This document shows, piece after piece, positions 32,822-38,928 of a stretch of DNA of 64,000 nucleotides; the stretch's first letter is position 1; each line of letters starts with the position of its first letter. The position numbers and the translations under genes are program-made. This stretch comes from Bryobacter sp. CoA8 C33 (lineage in GTDB: Bacteria; Acidobacteriota; Terriglobia; Bryobacterales; Bryobacteraceae): NCBI GenBank assembly GCA_019931185.1, contig JAINDK010000020.1:1-64000 (forward strand). Direction: 5' to 3'. The notes under the pieces are model-generated. The model ran no database searches. It saw nothing but the letters and a program-made list of their open reading frames with translations, and was not told the origin of the DNA.

Positions 32822-32870
32822 AGCTTCTCTTTCCCTCTAATTGATGGGGTATGGGCCGATAAGGCCGTTG

Positions 32871-33332
32871 ATGCGAGTAATTGAAACAGCGCGCTTTGGC
32901 ACAGTGAGGTATTCCGAGGGGGAAGAGATCCGGTTTCCGGCAGGGTTGCCGGGCTTTGAGAATGAGCACCGCTTTCTGCTGATCGAAGCGGCCGCGAGCG
33001 TGCCACTGAAGTTTCTGCAAAGCGTGGAAACCAGAGACCTTTCGTTTGTGCTGGCTCCGGTGGAGCTTTTGGCGCCGCACTATGACAGGAAGTTGCCACG
33101 GGGAGACCGGGAAACGCTGGGTGTCGAGAGCGAGGGCGCGGCGGGGCTGGAGTGGCTGGCAATTTTGTGCTTCGCGCGTCCGGAGGAGCCGACGGCGAAT
33201 CTGTTGGGGCCGCTGGTGATCCGGCGGGAGGCGGCGCTGGGCGTGCAATCGATCCGCGAGGATGCGCGGTATTCGGCCCGCCAGCCGCTGTTTGCGGCAG
33301 CCGTCGGAGAGGAGCCGGCCTTATGCTCGTAA
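32871..33332 (+). CDS. fliW: flagellar assembly factor FliW
   Basis: FliW binds flagellin and, when free, binds CsrA and relieves its block on flagellin translation. The 153-residue frame shows the family N-terminus (FGTVRYSEGEEIRFPAGLPGFENEHRFLLIE) and NLLGPLVIRREAALGVQ near the C-terminus. ATG 32871 was chosen over an in-frame TTG at 32841 because AAGG stands 7 nt before it. The last 10 bp overlap csrA, so translation of the two antagonists is coupled. Confidence 0.94.
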   Translation: MRVIETARFGTVRYSEGEEIRFPAGLPGFENEHRFLLIEAAASVPLKFLQSVETRDLSFVLAPVELLAPHYDRKLPRGDRETLGVESEGAAGLEWLAILCFARPEEPTANLLGPLVIRREAALGVQSIREDARYSARQPLFAAAVGEEPALCS

Positions 33333-33574
33333 TCCGGCGCCGGGCGGGCGAGGGGTTTCTGATTGGCGATTCCGTCGAGGTGGAAATCCTCGAGATCGAG
33401 GGCAATCAGGTCAAGATCGGGATCCAGGCGCCACGGGAAATGCCGATTTTGCGTAAGGAAATCGTGGCGACGCGGGAAACGAATCTTGATTCCGCGCAAG
33501 GGGTGGAGGAGAAAGCGCTTGAGGCGGCGATGAAGCGTCTGCGGCAGCCCCCCCCGGCCCCAGAACAGGATTAG
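33323..33574 (+). CDS. csrA: translational regulator CsrA
   Basis: An 83-residue dimeric RNA-binding protein that blocks translation at GGA motifs. MLVIRRRAGEGFLIGDSVEVEILEIEGNQVKIGIQAPREMPILRKEI contains the canonical strands, with R6-type basic residues near the N-terminus and the RKEI end of the core. A 25-residue C-terminal tail (VEEKALEAAMKRL) resembles the extended FliW-responsive CsrA form. It overlaps fliW by 10 bp and lies 141 bp before the flagellin start. Confidence 0.95.
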   Translation: MLVIRRRAGEGFLIGDSVEVEILEIEGNQVKIGIQAPREMPILRKEIVATRETNLDSAQGVEEKALEAAMKRLRQPPPAPEQD

Positions 33575-33603
33575 AGGTGCAACGCCTAAGGCGACAATTC
33601 GTT

Positions 33604-33630
33604 TCAAGCCGGCACAGGTGGTTCCGATAT
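33604..33630 (+). promoter_or_regulatory. candidate sigma-28 promoter of the flagellin gene
   Basis: TCAAGCCG-N11-TCCGATAT resembles the FliA consensus TAAAGTTT-N11-GCCGATAA: 4 of 8 in the -35 and 6 of 8 in the -10, with exact spacing. A start near 33637 would place both CsrA-type sites inside an 80-nt leader. A similar element precedes fliD. Confidence 0.5.
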
Positions 33631-33672
33631 GGGACGTAGTAGCGAAAAGCCGAGGTGGTGAAAGGCCATCAG

Positions 33673-33691
33673 CCTGGAGAGGATTTCCAGG
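33673..33691 (+). promoter_or_regulatory. CsrA-binding hairpin in flagellin leader (site 1)
   Basis: CCTGGA-GAGGATT-TCCAGG forms a perfect 6-bp stem with GGA displayed in a 7-nt loop, the preferred presentation of a high-affinity CsrA site. It lies about 25 nt before the start codon. Confidence 0.65.
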
Positions 33692-33700
33692 TGTTGGAAC

Positions 33701-33710
33701 ACAAAGGAGT
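33701..33710 (+). promoter_or_regulatory. CsrA-type site overlapping the flagellin Shine-Dalgarno (site 2)
   Basis: ACAAAGGAGT fits the core of the CsrA consensus (ACARGGANGT), and its AAGGAG is the ribosome binding site 6 nt before ATG 33716. CsrA bound here would block initiation, and site 1 would let one dimer bridge both, as at the Bacillus hag leader. Confidence 0.65.
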
Positions 33711-33715
33711 GAATC

Positions 33716-36700
33716 ATGTCTTTTTCTTCGAATACCAATATTGCGTCAATGCAGGCGCAGAGCTACATCAACAACACCAGTAATTTTCAGAGCAAGACGA
33801 TCAGTCGCGTTACCAGCGGTCTGCGCATTGTGAACTCTGGCGATGACGCCGCCGGCTTGGCGATTGCCAATGGGTTGCGTAGCGACCAGACCGTGCTGAC
33901 ACAGGGCATCCGCAACGCGAACGATGGGTTGAGCCAGTTGCAGATTGTCGATGGAGGCATCAATAACATTTCGAAGCTGCTTGACCGGGCCCGATCACTG
34001 GCGACGCAATCGGCTTCGGGGACCTTTACCGGATCGCGGACTGTATTGAACAACGAATTTTCCAGTGTTCTGCAGGAAATCGACCGTCAGGCGCAGACCA
34101 TCGGCCTGAACACGGGCGGCAGTTTTGCGCGTTCGCTATCAGTGTTTATCGGGGGCGGCAGGACTTCGAACGGAATCACGTCCACGGCAAACGGATCGGT
34201 TTCTGTGGATCTGAGCGCCTCGACGGTAGACGCCCAGAGCTTGGGTTTGAAGGGCGTGCAGGCGCGGGGTGTGGCGGGTACGGACATCGGCACGGGATCG
34301 GCCACGACTTCGCTGTCGCAGATTCTGGCGAACACAACAAATGCGAACTCGCAGGCAACAGCAAACACGACCCGCTTCACGTTGCGGGGGCCGGGCTTTT
34401 CCGGTGGCGGCGTTGATATCACCGTGAATACAAACGGCGCGGGCGGAACTTCAGACTTGGTCGCGCGGATCAACAGTTCGATCGATGCCGCCGGAGCGGC
34501 GGGAACACAATTGGCGACGGCCTTGAAGAACGCCAACATCAAGGCATCGGTGGTGACGGATTCGGCTGGCCGCCAGCAGATCGCTTTCACCTCCCCGACC
34601 ACGGCCTTTCAGGTGGAGGCGGGAGACCGGACGGCGAACGCCTTGCTGGGCAATTTTGAGCGCAATGCAATCGCGACGGGGACCAATACGGCGGTAAGCG
34701 TGAACACGAATGGCGGCACGAACGGCAGCTTGCAACTAAAGTTCAACGGTGGCGCGACACAGACCTTCACCCTGGCCGACAACAATGCCGGCGGCTCGAC
34801 TTCAAAGGGCTCGATTGTCGCGCAGTTGAACGCCAACTCGAGCTTTGCCGCCAGTGCGGTAGCTTCGCTCGATGGCAACCAGGTGGTGATCCGCTCGAAG
34901 ACGAATTCCGCTTCCTCGCAGATTGAAGTCGTACAGACGGGCCTGAGTGACAACCTCGGTTTAACGGGACTGAACGTGACGGCGGCCAATGCTTCAACGG
35001 GCGCCGATGTGCAGGTGAAAGTGCAAGGCTCGCAAGCGGTGCCATCCGGCGGCGTTTACGTCGCCGCCGGCGCCAGCGGCGCGACCGAGACGATCACTAC
35101 CTCGAACAATGCTTTGAGCTTTACGGTGGCGGGTACGACGCAAGCCATCACGCTGACCTCGGGCGTCAATCTGACCAAGCAGCAGATCGCCAACGACATC
35201 AATACATCAATCGCGGCCGGCGCCTTGAACAACAAGCTGCGCGCCTCCGTACTGAGCGATGGACAAACTCTGGTATTTACGGCTTTGAATGCCGGTGAGA
35301 CCGTGACGGTGAATACCCCCGGAGCCAACAGTGCGAATACCGACCTGGGTCTGACCGGCGGAACCGAGGCCACCTCAAATGTGTTCCTCAACTCGGACAC
35401 GATCCGTGTAAGGATCCAGGGTGGTTCCCTCGACAGCCCCGTGGAGATTTCGCTCAATCAGACGACGGCCGGATCCACCACCGTTCAGAGCGTCCTGACC
35501 GATCTGACCAGCCGCGTAACAAACAACAGCCAGTTGCAAGCCGCGGGAATCACACTGAGCTCGGTGGCAGCAGGCAACAACCTGGTGTTCAAGAGCGCGA
35601 GCGGGGAGACATTCCAGGTCGCCGTAAGCGGCGATTCAGAGAACAAACTGGGCTTTGGATCTTTTGTGATCAATGCCAGCAATCAATTTGATTACTCGGC
35701 GATCACCTCGGGCAGCGCCCTGACGCCGGCCTTCGACCGTGCCTACAACACGCAGACCGCCACGCTTGAGGTTTCGCTCAATGGCGGCGCCAGTAGCGGA
35801 AACGCCATCAATGTAACCCAGTTGGCCGACCGCGCGATTCTGACCGGCTCTGCTCGTGGCGCGGGCGCTACCGGCGCCGGTGCGGCGGGCAACCTGGTTT
35901 TCACGGTCAACGGCACGACGGTAACAACAGCGGTGGCCAACACCGAGGCCCTGGACACCGTTGTCGCCAATATCAACACGGCCATCGCCGGTGTCCCAGC
36001 CGCCGCGGGTACCGTGGCGGAACTGACAGGCTCGGGCGCCAGCACAGCCATTCGCATCCGCAGTGCGCAGGGAGCAAACGCTCTTGTTATCAGCGCCGCA
36101 TCGACCGCGGCGACTTTGACCGATCTGGGCTTGACAGCGAACTCATCCTCGACCGGTAATTCCGTAGCAACCGTTCGCCAGGACCTCGCCGACCAGATCA
36201 ACACCGCGATCAGCGGCGACGCGGAACTGCGCAATGCCGGTTTGCGGGCGACGATCGAGGCGGGTGGTGAGCTGACGATTGCTTCGAGCAACGGAACGAA
36301 CTTCCGCGTGCAGTCCTTCAGCAGCCAGAGCCTCGACCTTGGTTTTGGTTTGAAGGGCGCCAGCTACACCGGCTCAACTACGGCAGGAGCGCCGGTGGCC
36401 GGGGCGACGGTGAATTCCGGCGGCGCCGACCAGAGCCAGAGCCTGACCTTCAATCCGATTCTTTATGGCGCGGACGATCAGGCGATATCGATTACGGCAA
36501 GCGACACCCAGGGCGTCAAACAGAGCCTGAGTGTCACGCTGCGCAACGATGCAACTGGCCGCAGCGGTCGATCGATCGATGAAGCTGTAAAGGCCATCAA
36601 TGACACTTTGCAGCAGTCCAACAACGTGACACTCAAGCGGATCTTCGCGGTCAAGGAGAATACGGGTGGCTCGGAGAACATCCGTTTCTTGAGCACTGTG

Positions 36701-37105
36701 AAGGGCTTTGAAGTGAGCATCGGCGCCACGGCCGGCGGAACTGGCTTCACTCAGCCTACCGGTGGCATCGACAAGAGCGCCGTGGTCGGCACGGGGGCCA
36801 ATTCCTCGATCGACACCCAAGCCGCTGCCGAAGCGGCGGTGGAAGCTCTGTCCGATGCCGTTACCGCTCTTGGCAACGCCCAAGCCGTGGTTGGCCGCGG
36901 TCAGAACCAGTTCAACTTCGCGGTGAACCTGGCCCAAAGCCAGTTGACCAACCTCGCGGCCAGCGAAAGCCGGATCCGTGATGCGGATCTTGCTCAGGAA
37001 GCTGCTAACCTGTCGAAAGCCCAGATCCAGCTCCAGGCCGGTATCGCCGCTCTGGCGCAGGCCAACTCGGCGCCCCAGCAGGTGCTGAGTCTACTCCGGG
37101 GTTAA
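33716..37105 (+). CDS. fliC: giant flagellin
   Basis: Flagellin forms the filament. Residues 1-140 are the conserved N-terminal D0/D1 coil (SKTISRVTSGLRIVNSGDDAAGLAIANGLRS, LQIVDGGINNISKLLDRARSLA) and about 1040-1129 the C-terminal D1/D0 (AQAVVGRGQNQFNFAVNLAQSQ to SAPQQVLSLLRG). At 1129 residues it is about two to four times the usual length. The 900-residue centre is a chain of Flagellin_IN-like modules, each a strand, a DLxxxIN helix and a G-x-LxFxS strand pair, at about 220-303, 338-410, 466-548, 562-650, 726-806, 818-880 and 906-1002. No cysteine is seen. Regulation by FliW/CsrA is strongly suggested by the leader. The next gene is a likely glycosyltransferase. Confidence 0.93.
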   Translation: MSFSSNTNIASMQAQSYINNTSNFQSKTISRVTSGLRIVNSGDDAAGLAIANGLRSDQTVLTQGIRNANDGLSQLQIVDGGINNISKLLDRARSLATQSASGTFTGSRTVLNNEFSSVLQEIDRQAQTIGLNTGGSFARSLSVFIGGGRTSNGITSTANGSVSVDLSASTVDAQSLGLKGVQARGVAGTDIGTGSATTSLSQILANTTNANSQATANTTRFTLRGPGFSGGGVDITVNTNGAGGTSDLVARINSSIDAAGAAGTQLATALKNANIKASVVTDSAGRQQIAFTSPTTAFQVEAGDRTANALLGNFERNAIATGTNTAVSVNTNGGTNGSLQLKFNGGATQTFTLADNNAGGSTSKGSIVAQLNANSSFAASAVASLDGNQVVIRSKTNSASSQIEVVQTGLSDNLGLTGLNVTAANASTGADVQVKVQGSQAVPSGGVYVAAGASGATETITTSNNALSFTVAGTTQAITLTSGVNLTKQQIANDINTSIAAGALNNKLRASVLSDGQTLVFTALNAGETVTVNTPGANSANTDLGLTGGTEATSNVFLNSDTIRVRIQGGSLDSPVEISLNQTTAGSTTVQSVLTDLTSRVTNNSQLQAAGITLSSVAAGNNLVFKSASGETFQVAVSGDSENKLGFGSFVINASNQFDYSAITSGSALTPAFDRAYNTQTATLEVSLNGGASSGNAINVTQLADRAILTGSARGAGATGAGAAGNLVFTVNGTTVTTAVANTEALDTVVANINTAIAGVPAAAGTVAELTGSGASTAIRIRSAQGANALVISAASTAATLTDLGLTANSSSTGNSVATVRQDLADQINTAISGDAELRNAGLRATIEAGGELTIASSNGTNFRVQSFSSQSLDLGFGLKGASYTGSTTAGAPVAGATVNSGGADQSQSLTFNPILYGADDQAISITASDTQGVKQSLSVTLRNDATGRSGRSIDEAVKAINDTLQQSNNVTLKRIFAVKENTGGSENIRFLSTVKGFEVSIGATAGGTGFTQPTGGIDKSAVVGTGANSSIDTQAAAEAAVEALSDAVTALGNAQAVVGRGQNQFNFAVNLAQSQLTNLAASESRIRDADLAQEAANLSKAQIQLQAGIAALAQANSAPQQVLSLLRG

Positions 37106-37218: not shown

Positions 37219-38928
37219 ATGAACCTACAAGAATTGGAACAAAGAGGCGAGCGATTGCTGGCTTACCTCGAAAAAAACCCAAACCATGGACCAACCTACG
37301 ATGCCTTGGGACTACTGGCCATGGATTCGAGTTCGACGGCCGAGGCAATCGATCTCATTCGGAATGCAATCCGTCTGGACGGGCCAACACCGGAGTATTG
37401 CGCCCATCTTGGCGAAGCCTTCGCGCGGCGGGGGGATTACCGCTCGGCTGCGGCCTGTCTTAGTCAGGCCTTGGTGAGTTTTCCAGACCACGTGGATTTG
37501 CGGTGGGCCTATGCCAACCTGTTGCATCTGGAAGGCAGGACCGAAGAGGCTGCCCTCAATTACGAAAAGCTGCTTGCCGTGCGACCGCGGCACGCGGAAG
37601 CCTGGTTCAACATGGGCGTTAGCCGGGGATTGCTCGGCCAGTTGGATCAGGCGCGGCGCGCCTACGAGCAGGCCGTAGCCATCCAGCCCGCATACGCCGA
37701 GGCCTGGAACAACCTGGCGTTGCTGGAAGTGGCCGCGGGTAACCCGGCCGGGGCTGAGGTGTGTTATCGGCGGGCTTTGCTCGTCAAACCCAATTACCGC
37801 GATGCGCTATACAACTTCGCGGTATTGCTGCAGGACCAGGAGCGCCTGCAGGAGGCAGCCTCGATGAACGAGCGGCTGCTCGCCATCGATGGAGCCTTTG
37901 CCGAGGCCCACAACAACCTGGGCAACTGCTATCTGAAGCTCAACCGCCTCGCCGAGGCCCAAAATCAGTATGTCGAAACTCTCGCCATCCGGGCATCGCA
38001 CCGCGAGGCGCCACTCAACCTGGGAATCGTCTCGCTGTTGATGGGCGATCTGGCCCAGGGCTGGGTCGGCTATGAGCACCGCCAGGCACAGCGCGACATA
38101 GACCGGTGGGATTGGAAAATCCCCCGCTGGGACGGGAAGTTACGCGCTGGTGAGTCGATCCTCCTGCATGCCGAGCAAGGCTTTGGCGACACGATCCACT
38201 TCGCGCGCTACGCCCCCCTGCTGGCCCAAGGCGGCATGGATGTGCATGTATTGTGCCAGCCGGCCATGGCGCCGCTGCTCCAGACACTCGCGGGCGTCAA
38301 GCACTGTGTGAGCAAGTTGGAGGATTTGGAAGTCGTCGACTGGCAGGCGCCGTTCCCCAGTTTGCCCTATTGTTTTCGCACTACCCTCGAGACGATCCCC
38401 AACAAAGTGCCGTACCTCAAGGTGGAACTGGCGCGGCAGCAAAGCTGGAAGCGGCTCTACAGCGAGTTGCCGCCGGCACGCAAGCGAGTTGGCTTGGTTT
38501 GGCAGGGAAATCCAAAACACCGCAACGACCGGAATCGCTCGATCGCTCCACGTTTGTTGGCGCCGCTGCTCGAGACGGTGGACATCCAATGGCTGAGCCT
38601 GCAAAAGGGTGGCGACAAGAGTAACCTGCCAACAGCCGTGATGGATCTCGCGCCGCTGCTCGTGAATTTCGCCGAGACCGCTGCCGCCATCGAGGGGCTC
38701 GACTTGGTGATCACCGTCGATACGGCCGTGGCACACCTGGCCGGAGCCCTGGGAAAGCCGGTCTGGACTCTGATCCCTTATGCACCAGACTGGCGCTGGC
38801 TGCTCTACCGGGACGATTCACCGTGGTATCCGACGATGCGGCTCTTCCGCCAGCCGATCGCGGGCGACTGGGATAGCGTGATTTTGGCGGTGCGGCGGGC
38901 GCTCGGGGAATTCACTCGCGTGAATTGA
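37219..38928 (+). CDS. TPR repeat protein with glycosyltransferase domain
   Basis: A 569-residue protein. The first 285 residues are about eight tetratricopeptide repeats (for example AEAWFNMGVSRGLLGQLDQARRAYEQAVAIQP and AEAHNNLGNCYLKLNRLAEAQNQY). The C-terminal part (about 290-565) has a GT-B fold of the GT9/GT41-like type: ILLHAEQGFGDTIHFARYAPLLA, RVGLVWQGNPKHRNDRNRSI, and VITVDTAVAHLAGALGKPVWTLIP, the sugar-nucleotide site. AGGAGA precedes the start. Such proteins often lie by flagellin genes and O-glycosylate flagellin; the giant flagellin next door is the obvious candidate target, by inference. Confidence 0.87.
   Translation: MNLQELEQRGERLLAYLEKNPNHGPTYDALGLLAMDSSSTAEAIDLIRNAIRLDGPTPEYCAHLGEAFARRGDYRSAAACLSQALVSFPDHVDLRWAYANLLHLEGRTEEAALNYEKLLAVRPRHAEAWFNMGVSRGLLGQLDQARRAYEQAVAIQPAYAEAWNNLALLEVAAGNPAGAEVCYRRALLVKPNYRDALYNFAVLLQDQERLQEAASMNERLLAIDGAFAEAHNNLGNCYLKLNRLAEAQNQYVETLAIRASHREAPLNLGIVSLLMGDLAQGWVGYEHRQAQRDIDRWDWKIPRWDGKLRAGESILLHAEQGFGDTIHFARYAPLLAQGGMDVHVLCQPAMAPLLQTLAGVKHCVSKLEDLEVVDWQAPFPSLPYCFRTTLETIPNKVPYLKVELARQQSWKRLYSELPPARKRVGLVWQGNPKHRNDRNRSIAPRLLAPLLETVDIQWLSLQKGGDKSNLPTAVMDLAPLLVNFAETAAAIEGLDLVITVDTAVAHLAGALGKPVWTLIPYAPDWRWLLYRDDSPWYPTMRLFRQPIAGDWDSVILAVRRALGEFTRVN

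Follow-up and report, generated by a model that had tools for sequence, protein, structure and literature searches.

The 64,000-nucleotide stretch of Bryobacter DNA analysed here (the window) contains fliW, csrA and a flagellin gene, together with two promoter-like sites and a leader with two hairpins (Table 1). The fliW product matched the Pfam FliW family above its cut-off (E = 1.5e-25) and two solved FliW-type proteins, 2aj7 (7.7e-19) and 5dmb (1.5e-13); the NCBIfam FliW models also matched, yet below their equivalog cut-offs. The csrA product matched Pfam CsrA (E = 1.1e-20) and, slightly below the cut-off, the NCBIfam csrA models, and it was the single CsrA match in the whole genome. The flagellin is conserved at both ends, with Flagellin_N at residues 6-132 (Pfam, E = 3e-25) and Flagellin_C at residues 1043-1127 (E = 8.6e-20), and has a variable and very long middle. 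The gene for the export chaperone FliS, a companion that is not strictly defining, is located at G000:C69 (E = 3.6e-31).

Table 1. Genes and leader features of the fliW-csrA-flagellin locus
Feature	Position	Strand	Description
Sigma-28-type promoter-like site before fliW	32836-32862	+	TCTA-N15-GCCGATAA; 10/12 consensus letters
fliW	32871-33332	+	ATG 32871, TAA 33332; 153 aa; presumed antagonist of CsrA and flagellin-binding assembly factor
csrA	33323-33574	+	ATG 33323, TAG 33574; 83 aa; extended at the C-terminus
Sigma-28-type promoter-like site for flagellin	33604-33630	+	TCAA-N15-TCCGATAT; 9/12 consensus letters
First leader hairpin	33654-33670	+	GGTGG / CCATC; loop without GGA
Candidate CsrA-site hairpin	33673-33691	+	CCTGGAGAGGATTTCCAGG; loop GGA 33681-33683
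Third GGA	33696-33698	+	In 2/5 genus leaders
RBS GGA	33706-33708	+	Within AAAGGAG; proposed second CsrA site
Flagellin gene	33716-37105	+	ATG 33716, TAA 37105; 1129 aa; proposed target of regulation

A reading of this DNA made from the sequence only had described a 10-bp overlap of fliW and csrA and a flagellin ATG 141 bp past csrA, and both distances are correct. The tight linkage of the three genes is likewise real here, but it is shared across the family and not peculiar to this locus: of 121 family stretches, csrA came next after fliW in 120 and a flagellin gene then followed in 79. The other 42 stretches showed no flagellin gene, 5 of them being shorter than 2.5 kb. An intrinsic terminator between csrA and the flagellin gene was considered, and none was found in that interval.

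Promoter-like sites and the flagellin leader

Both promoter-like sites are matches to the sigma-28 consensus, and the starts derived from them are predictions. The site before fliW ends 8 nt before the ATG, which may leave the fliW mRNA with almost no leader. Matches at 9 or more of 12 letters were present in 49 of 121 fliW upstream regions and matches at 10 or more in 36, as compared to 7.3 and 0.8 expected from shuffles. At the flagellin gene the -10 box ends 85 nt 5' of the ATG, and the mRNA is predicted to start near 33637, 5' of the hairpin and the ribosome binding site (RBS). Sites at 9 or more of 12 letters, located 145-60 nt before the start, were found in 44 of the 79 linked flagellin leaders (4.1 expected).

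As the sequence-only reading had stated, the leader has a GGA site in a hairpin loop and another over the RBS. The hairpin has six perfect Watson-Crick pairs, with a G-U and an A-U pair additionally within its 7-nt loop, and these eight pairs had probabilities of 0.63-0.96 in the ensemble of the predicted transcript, in which the loop GGA was unpaired at 97-100%. Both the loop GGA and the RBS GGA are kept in 5/5 genus members. Further GGAs start at 33632, 33676 (within the stem) and 33696; the last of these had also been pointed out and is present, but with 2/5 genus leaders it was rejected as a conserved third site and is probably not a needed CsrA site. The first leader hairpin has five pairs, which are kept at 100% in the five genus members with one-sided changes only. 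Folding of the leader, a check that the sequence-only reading had proposed, supported the hairpin pairs in the ensemble, but the single-sequence energy was unremarkable (z = -0.43 and -0.99). Folding energy alone was thus rejected as support, and the window leader by itself is weak evidence. Rfam gave no match at the gathering threshold over the window, while a search of 13 relatives that accepted E-values up to 1 gave five matches, all below the gathering score and none on a leader element; these sub-threshold matches include miRNA families (L080, L017) and two sRNA/ctRNA families (L005).

To follow the stem across relatives, we aligned the leaders of five genus members that had not been selected for the hairpin (A1). 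In the extended helix, 5 of 10 pairs were changed on both sides and 94% of the cells were paired; of 500 shuffles, 2 reached the covariation score and 9 reached the count of pairs with two-sided changes. A family alignment of 35 leaders (A2) was 75.6% paired with a score of 0.327, the percentage being biased upward since the rows came from a pool of 62 leaders in which the hairpin was already present. A control slid by -1 came close to these values (66.1% and 0.297) because loop lengths differ, and 103 of 500 shuffles equalled or exceeded the number of both-side pair changes. Most of the CsrA-selected hairpins in PMC7652899 have a shorter stem than this one, and a very stable structure is considered a possible disadvantage there.

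CsrA, FliW and the flagellin leaders of the family

The 83-residue CsrA has a C-terminal extension relative to the 61 aa of the E. coli protein (PMC7829508). Its RNA-binding Arg44 is present in 95 of 118 family CsrAs, and its FliW-binding Asn, residue 54, is aligned in all 118 CsrAs longer than 60 aa. The equivalent of V51, the second FliW-related residue known from C. jejuni (V or I elsewhere), is a T at residue 50, a position occupied by T in 49, V in 33 and A in 29 of the 118 family sequences. Among 150 family genomes, FliW was found in 115 and CsrA in 114, the two lists differing only by G146, in which csrA is cut by the contig end; none of the 35 genomes without FliW yielded a CsrA, and the CsrA match in G117, a fragment, scored below the Pfam cut-off. 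Outside the family, 30 genomes with FliW were recorded and 20 of these retrieved; in outgroup CsrA sequences the Asn is residue 55, as counted by eye.

FliW and CsrA might act mainly on other genes, in which case CsrA would be a global regulator with flagellin as just one of many targets; in Geobacter, CsrA influences biofilm and electron transfer (PMC13407953). We consider this unlikely, given that csrA is single-copy and overlaps fliW, that CsrA was not detected in the FliW-less genomes, and that a model of the leader (R2) picked out no other strong site in the genome, its only further match there having an E-value of 0.48. Across 41 whole genomes the model gave 12 matches at E < 1e-3, ten of them training sequences, and all 12 were located directly 5' of a flagellin start (among the matches listed, or in retrieved loci).

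That the hairpin and GGA pattern is non-random follows from the comparison of 139 flagellin leaders from CsrA-bearing genomes, the unlinked ones taken from among the matches listed. A hairpin with 5 bp or more and a GGA in its loop preceded the RBS in 72 of the 139 leaders (among the matches listed), whereas 12.2 were expected from shuffles. When the best hairpin was chosen regardless of its loop, again among the matches listed, one existed in 122 of the 139 leaders (45.4 expected), had a GGA in its central 9 nt in 64 (9.4 expected) and combined at least 7 bp with a GGA in 37 (0.9 expected). Using the same procedure on control regions, a GGA was found in 6/121 upstream of fliW and 8/120 upstream of csrA, and the strong kind in 0/121 and 0/120. 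The criteria were set after the linked leaders had been read; of the 60 unlinked leaders, which were retrieved later, 24 (among the matches listed) had a hairpin GGA compared to 4.0 expected. Of 87 retrieved loci, 15 had no usable start or match (weak or FlgL-like, including L003 of the window's genome), and L202, a duplicate of L191, was excluded as FlgL-like. The loop GGA and the RBS GGA were separated by a median of 25 nt (5-95% range 20-29, n = 63), which is inside the CsrA bridging range of 10-63 nt (PMC7652899). A GGA within an RBS is ordinary in itself: one was present no more than 20 nt from the start codon in 79/79 linked and 59/60 unlinked leaders (the latter among the matches listed), and also in 11/11 leaders from genomes without detected CsrA, here called CsrA-less (among the matches listed).

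Alternatively, the hairpin could stabilise the mRNA in a general way, serve as a ribosome-standby structure or mark a csrA-flagellin processing site, with CsrA acting only at the RBS or elsewhere. A hairpin, although not its GGA, was located at the same place in 10 of the 11 CsrA-less leaders (2.8 expected; among the matches listed), so that the stem may also serve another purpose. Moreover, the best hairpin was without GGA or no hairpin was found in 75 of the 139 leaders from CsrA-bearing genomes, in which loops with AGA (23), UGA (6) and CGA (7) also occurred (both counts among the matches listed). The excess of loop GGAs over the shuffles given above (64 compared to 9.4 expected) and the narrow spacing to the RBS GGA nevertheless make this explanation quite unlikely, and the loop GGAs in front of unlinked flagellin genes argue that the element is not simply a processing signal. 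Among the matches listed, the GGA-loop hairpin (5 bp or more) was present in 2 of the 11 CsrA-less leaders (0.6 expected), and the best hairpin had a GGA in 1 of 11 (Fisher p = 0.024, a comparison confounded by clade and possibly by incomplete assemblies). A chance hairpin with a chance GGA, in which the gene order is real and RNA control absent, would fit the ordinary folding energies of the window leader but is scarcely credible in view of the compensatory changes in the genus and the family-wide excess over the controls.

Diverged leaders

One clade, comprising 23 CsrAs, has Ala, Met, Thr or Ser at residue 44 in place of the otherwise critical Arg. In its leaders the upstream loop is mostly AGA instead of GGA and the RBS GGA is located within a mini-hairpin of its own (GAAAGGAUUUC), which together with the replacement suggests a changed mode of RNA recognition. 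Of the 79 linked leaders, 67 have a hairpin; its loop was GGA in 39 and not in 13 when CsrA had Arg44, as compared to 1 and 14 when CsrA had another residue (Fisher p = 2.4e-6). Exceptions were L081 (Ala44, GGA) and L055 (Arg44, AGA), and the AGA assignment of L040 rests on a doubtful hairpin. In a quick tree of FliW and CsrA, Arg44 changed once (branch support 89), with one independent pair, so that its joint loss with the hairpin GGA counts as one event and no statistical correlation is claimed.

Fifteen leaders enclose the proposed CsrA site in a co-varying three-way-junction RNA with no Rfam match, in which the hairpin is one arm; in whole genomes the model of this RNA matched almost only before flagellin genes. 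The alignment (A3) contains 15 of 16 pattern matches, L014 having been dropped as spurious. We tentatively raise the possibility, which we hold to be less probable than its opposite, that the contact between CsrA and the flagellin RNA was rebuilt at least twice in the family, in the Arg44-less clade and in the three-way-junction leaders; if so, the junction could give flagellin translation a second input. The family retains the link between CsrA and FliW even as the RNA site of flagellin diverges, and thereby provides a natural set for the co-evolution of a small RNA-binding protein and its target.

Proposed control and comparison with known systems

The FliW-CsrA-flagellin homeostat has been studied in Bacillus, Clostridioides and Campylobacter, and the gene order here is that of B. 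subtilis, fliW-csrA-hag. As the sequence-only reading proposed, the locus very probably encodes a homeostatic loop of this known kind. Those of its sequence-level predictions that were examined agree with what was found, namely a FliW family protein, a CsrA with Arg44 and Asn, a two-site GGA leader with bridging-range spacing and a co-varying stem, an upstream sigma-28-type promoter-like site, co-occurrence of CsrA and FliW, and acidobacterial relatives. FliW and CsrA beside a flagellin gene and a hairpin kept by matching base changes are good evidence that the known control extends to the Acidobacteriota, with comparative evidence from both RNA and protein.

By analogy with Bacillus and Campylobacter, sigma-28 would transcribe fliW-csrA, and the flagellin gene would be transcribed from its own promoter. 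A CsrA dimer would grip the loop GGA at 33681 and bridge about 25 nt to the RBS GGA at 33706, so that ribosomes could not load and flagellin would be repressed. FliW would titrate CsrA by binding its C-terminal helix via the conserved Asn, releasing the mRNA, and unexported flagellin would in turn bind FliW, freeing CsrA to repress again. In PMC4682653, Acidobacteria are mentioned only among groups possibly using FliW. No prior report of this leader was found in the largely open-access literature covered, and the titles retrieved for Bryobacter and flagellin concern unrelated topics.

At E. coli glgC, a high-affinity hairpin GGA tethers the CsrA dimer, which bridges to the RBS GGA (PMC7652899); the arrangement of the two GGAs is alike here, and bridging is what we propose. 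The antagonists in that system are the CsrB/C RNAs, whereas here it would be FliW, and a search of the genome for CsrB (RF00018) found nothing at E up to 1, the control of this search exceeding the cut-off in 1 of 14 genomes. The flaA leader of C. jejuni has a hairpin-loop GGA and an RBS GGA 21 nt apart, stems kept across species by compensatory changes, and a sigma-28 promoter (PMC4894983). The leader described here shares the loop and RBS GGAs, the co-varying stem and a sigma-28-type promoter-like site, but both GGAs are in stem-loops in C. jejuni while no stable stem-loop was found around the RBS GGA here, and the present leader, counted from the predicted start, spans about 79 nt with an extra first hairpin, as compared to a 5'UTR of 45 nt in C. 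jejuni. In B. subtilis, FliW antagonises a CsrA with a C-terminal extension and a key Asn, and the flagellin leader has two CsrA sites, one over the RBS (PMC7652899, PMC7829508). The locus resembles this system in FliW, the extended CsrA with its Asn and the two-site leader, the hag leader being compared by description. It differs in belonging to another phylum, in the size of its flagellin, in the separate sigma-28-like sites before fliW and before the flagellin gene, and in the FliW-binding Asn, which at residue 54 instead of 55 (PMC7829508) is one residue nearer the core than N55 of B. subtilis and C. jejuni.

The fliW-csrA-flagellin locus and its conservation

The gene boundaries of the sequence-only reading proved correct on rechecking, with fliW and csrA overlapping by 10 bp and 141 bases separating csrA from the flagellin gene. 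The NCBIfam models for FliW and CsrA match the encoded proteins with scores under their equivalog cut-offs. Profile searches of the window's genome yielded a single match each for CsrA and FliW and two for Flagellin_N, the weaker of which (320 aa) is probably FlgL. The label of acidobacterium holds, since the four relatives that turned up among named genomes, MAGs titled Acidobacteria, Bryobacter or Bryobacteraceae, encode FliW proteins 69-73% identical to that of the window.

Features of the fliW-csrA-flagellin locus in the window
Feature	Position	Strand	Details
sigma-28-type promoter-like site, fliW	32836-32862	+	ends just 8 nt before fliW ATG
fliW	32871-33332	+	FliW profile match 1.5e-25
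csrA	33323-33574	+	CsrA profile match 1.1e-20
sigma-28-type promoter-like site, flagellin	33604-33630	+	TCAA-N15-TCCGATAT; ends 85 nt before ATG
leader hairpin	33673-33691	+	CCTGGA-GAGGATT-TCCAGG; GGA in loop
flagellin	33716-37105	+	Flagellin_N 3e-25, Flagellin_C 8.6e-20
TPR protein	37219-38928	+	just 3' of flagellin; glycosyltransferase family 9 match 6.5e-7

The flagellin is very long (1129 aa); about 900 aa of it separate the conserved ends, and inspection by eye shows a repeated domain in this middle part. The open frames in genus relatives are 1119-1120 aa in three and 795 aa in a fourth (genome G104). The TPR/glycosyltransferase family 9 protein is a candidate flagellin-modifying enzyme, and in the five genomes with both positions among the matches listed, the flagellin gene is closely followed by the best match to it from the genus.

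Among the 150 family genomes, profile searches identified FliW in 115, CsrA in 114 (113 above cut-off) and Flagellin_N, a profile that picks up FlgL as well as flagellin, in 139. The FliW-positive and CsrA-positive genomes, as listed, form identical sets but for G146, where csrA is truncated by the contig end. In a sample of 121 stretches (120 FliW stretches from the family and the window), csrA adjoins fliW in 120 and a flagellin start follows downstream in 79, five of the 42 stretches without one being shorter than 2.5 kb. The 10-bp overlap occurs in 71 of 120 family pairs. Judged from these gene orders, the tight linkage of all three parts, present in the window as had been claimed, is a family-wide trait and not special to this locus. 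Among 20 stretches from other acidobacterial families, drawn from 30 out-of-family genomes with FliW, csrA follows fliW in 18 and a flagellin start lies downstream, within a reach of up to 2.5 kb, in only one. Two genomes that share a genus contain an additional short CsrA match, with an open frame of 69 aa, next to two unlinked flagellins (G020:C32:16970-17098 and G087:C155:11317-11445).

A GGA-loop hairpin in the flagellin leader

The GGA-loop hairpin is real and its loop GGA is 97-100% unpaired in the predicted transcript according to ensemble folding, but the folding energy of the leader is unremarkable compared to shuffles (z -0.43 and -0.99). Because the leader folds no better than shuffles, the window alone could not settle the hairpin, and relatives were therefore gathered for comparison. 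The GGA at 33696, the third one named in the sequence-only reading, was dropped as a site as it is not conserved.

Dinucleotide shuffles served as the reference for 139 flagellin leaders from CsrA-bearing genomes (79 linked to fliW-csrA, 60 unlinked). Leaders in which a GGA-loop hairpin of 5 bp or more precedes the ribosome binding site (RBS) numbered 72 versus 12.2 expected. When the best hairpin was chosen blind to its loop, one was present in 122 leaders (45.4 expected); its central 9 nt held a GGA in 64 leaders (9.4 expected), and in 37 the GGA went with a stem of at least 7 bp (0.9 expected). The same procedure applied as a control upstream of fliW and csrA gave a GGA in 6/121 and 8/120 cases, none of the strong kind. 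The unlinked leaders, which were taken from the flagellin matches listed and gathered only after the pattern had been seen, contained the GGA hairpin in 24/60 cases versus 4.0 expected. By these counts, the leader hairpin is more than a chance feature.

In a genus alignment of 5 leaders, not selected for the hairpin, both partners had changed in 5/10 hairpin pairs, with 94% of cells paired. Of 500 shuffles, 2 attained the covariation score for the two leader hairpins combined; with the partners shifted by a single base, pairing fell from 96% to at most 59%. For a family alignment of 35 leaders selected for having the hairpin, the covariation score and pairing (75.6%) beat 500/500 shuffles, while the count of pairs changed on both sides was equalled by 103/500. 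The structure slid by -1 was nearly as good (66.1%, score 0.297 versus 0.327 unslid) because loop lengths vary by a base.

A search of 41 whole genomes with R2, a covariance model of the flagellin leader, yielded 12 matches at E <1e-3, all directly 5' of flagellin starts among the matches listed or in fetched loci. With 10 of these 12 already in the training set, this is evidence of specificity, not discovery. The next R2 match in the window's genome had an E value of 0.48, and no CsrB RNA was matched there at E up to 1.

Promoter-like sites were scored against the sigma-28 consensus. At least 9 of the 12 consensus letters were present in the flagellin promoter region of 44/79 linked leaders versus 4.1 expected. 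Given the position of the site in the window, the transcript is predicted to start near 33637, 5' of both GGA sites; a start downstream of 33691, named beforehand as counting against the control unit, is thus not indicated as far as sequence can tell. With its sigma-28-like site ending so close to the ATG, fliW may have an mRNA almost without a leader. The distance between site and ATG is the same or nearly the same in three genus relatives (loci L071, L090 and L101).

Fifteen leaders from relatives (L018, L020, L048, L055, L061, L065, L080, L102, L116, L121, L122, L158, L159, L162 and L180) share a three-way junction with arms P1 (GAUAC/GUAUC), P2 (conserved G(C/U)AU...GAGAACC) and P3, which is the hairpin and has a CsrA-type GGA loop in most. 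Here both partners had changed in 9/18 pairs, 95.9% of cells were paired and the covariation score was reached by 0/500 shuffles. R1, the model of this element, matched 25 sites in the 150 genomes at E up to 0.01: all 15 training leaders plus 10 further sites. Eight of these 10, and 23/25 overall, directly precede a flagellin start, the two exceptions having E values of 0.001 and 0.005. Rfam gave no match on the element in 10 members scanned. R1 had no match in the window's genome, and the lead does not concern the window's leader.

CsrA residues and divergent leaders

According to PMC7829508, CsrA requires an Asn for FliW binding, N55 in both B. subtilis and C. jejuni, with V51 as a further requirement in C. 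jejuni. The Asn is kept in 118/118 family CsrAs longer than 60 aa. By eye, the stretch of residues 47-54 places it one residue closer to the core than in other acidobacterial families, whose CsrAs have the Asn at 55. The V51-equivalent is variable (T 49, V 33 and A 29 among the 118, the window having T). Residue 44, on which RNA binding by E. coli CsrA depends critically (PMC7652899), is Arg in the window and in 95/118 family CsrAs.

In one clade of 23 CsrAs (such as L019, L051, L067 and L074), residue 44 is instead Ala (17), Met (3), Thr (2) or Ser (1). Among its 16 linked leaders, 12 have AGA (one doubtful, L040), one UGA, one GGA and one another loop, while one is without a hairpin. A GGA mini-hairpin, GAAAGGA(A/C/U)UUC, is present at the RBS in 14/16 versus 0/63 in Arg44 genomes. 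The pairing of Arg44 loss with the AGA loop and mini-hairpin is only suggestive of a linked change, because the replacement is a single change on the tree. This lead does not concern the window's own leader.

Some leaders do not fit the pattern. The best hairpin is without GGA, or absent, in 75/139 leaders of CsrA-bearing genomes. In genomes without detected CsrA, the hairpin is still present in 10/11 leaders, so that the stem may have a second role. Only 1/11 have a GGA in the best hairpin (Fisher p 0.024) and 2/11 pass the looser GGA-hairpin test (at least 5 bp), a comparison confounded by clade and in which some of the CsrA-less assemblies are incomplete.

The locus compared with known systems

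We conclude that the locus is most probably a FliW-CsrA-flagellin homeostat. The RNA sites, the key residues, the promoter-like sites and the joint occurrence of CsrA and FliW are sequence findings; each binding step, and whether the control is positive or negative, is carried over from Bacillus and Campylobacter. By analogy, a CsrA dimer would anchor on the hairpin loop, reach the RBS and block flagellin translation; FliW would then remove CsrA from the leader, and flagellin still unexported would capture FliW and thereby restore repression. The control unit proposed in the sequence-only reading is thus confirmed as an observation and supported in its interpretation, less one proposed site.

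The hairpin and RBS GGAs start at a median of 36 and 11 nt before the flagellin start codon, with a spacing of 25 nt (5-95% range 20-29; n=63). According to PMC7652899, CsrA dimers bridge two sites separated by 10-63 nt, optimally by >18, and the spacing in the C. jejuni flaA leader is given as 21 nt in PMC4894983, compared to 25 nt in the family leaders. The locus itself belongs to an already known kind of system, the FliW-CsrA-flagellin homeostat. What lifts it above routine is the depth of the comparison, together with two side leads, the Arg44-loss clade and the three-way-junction leaders.
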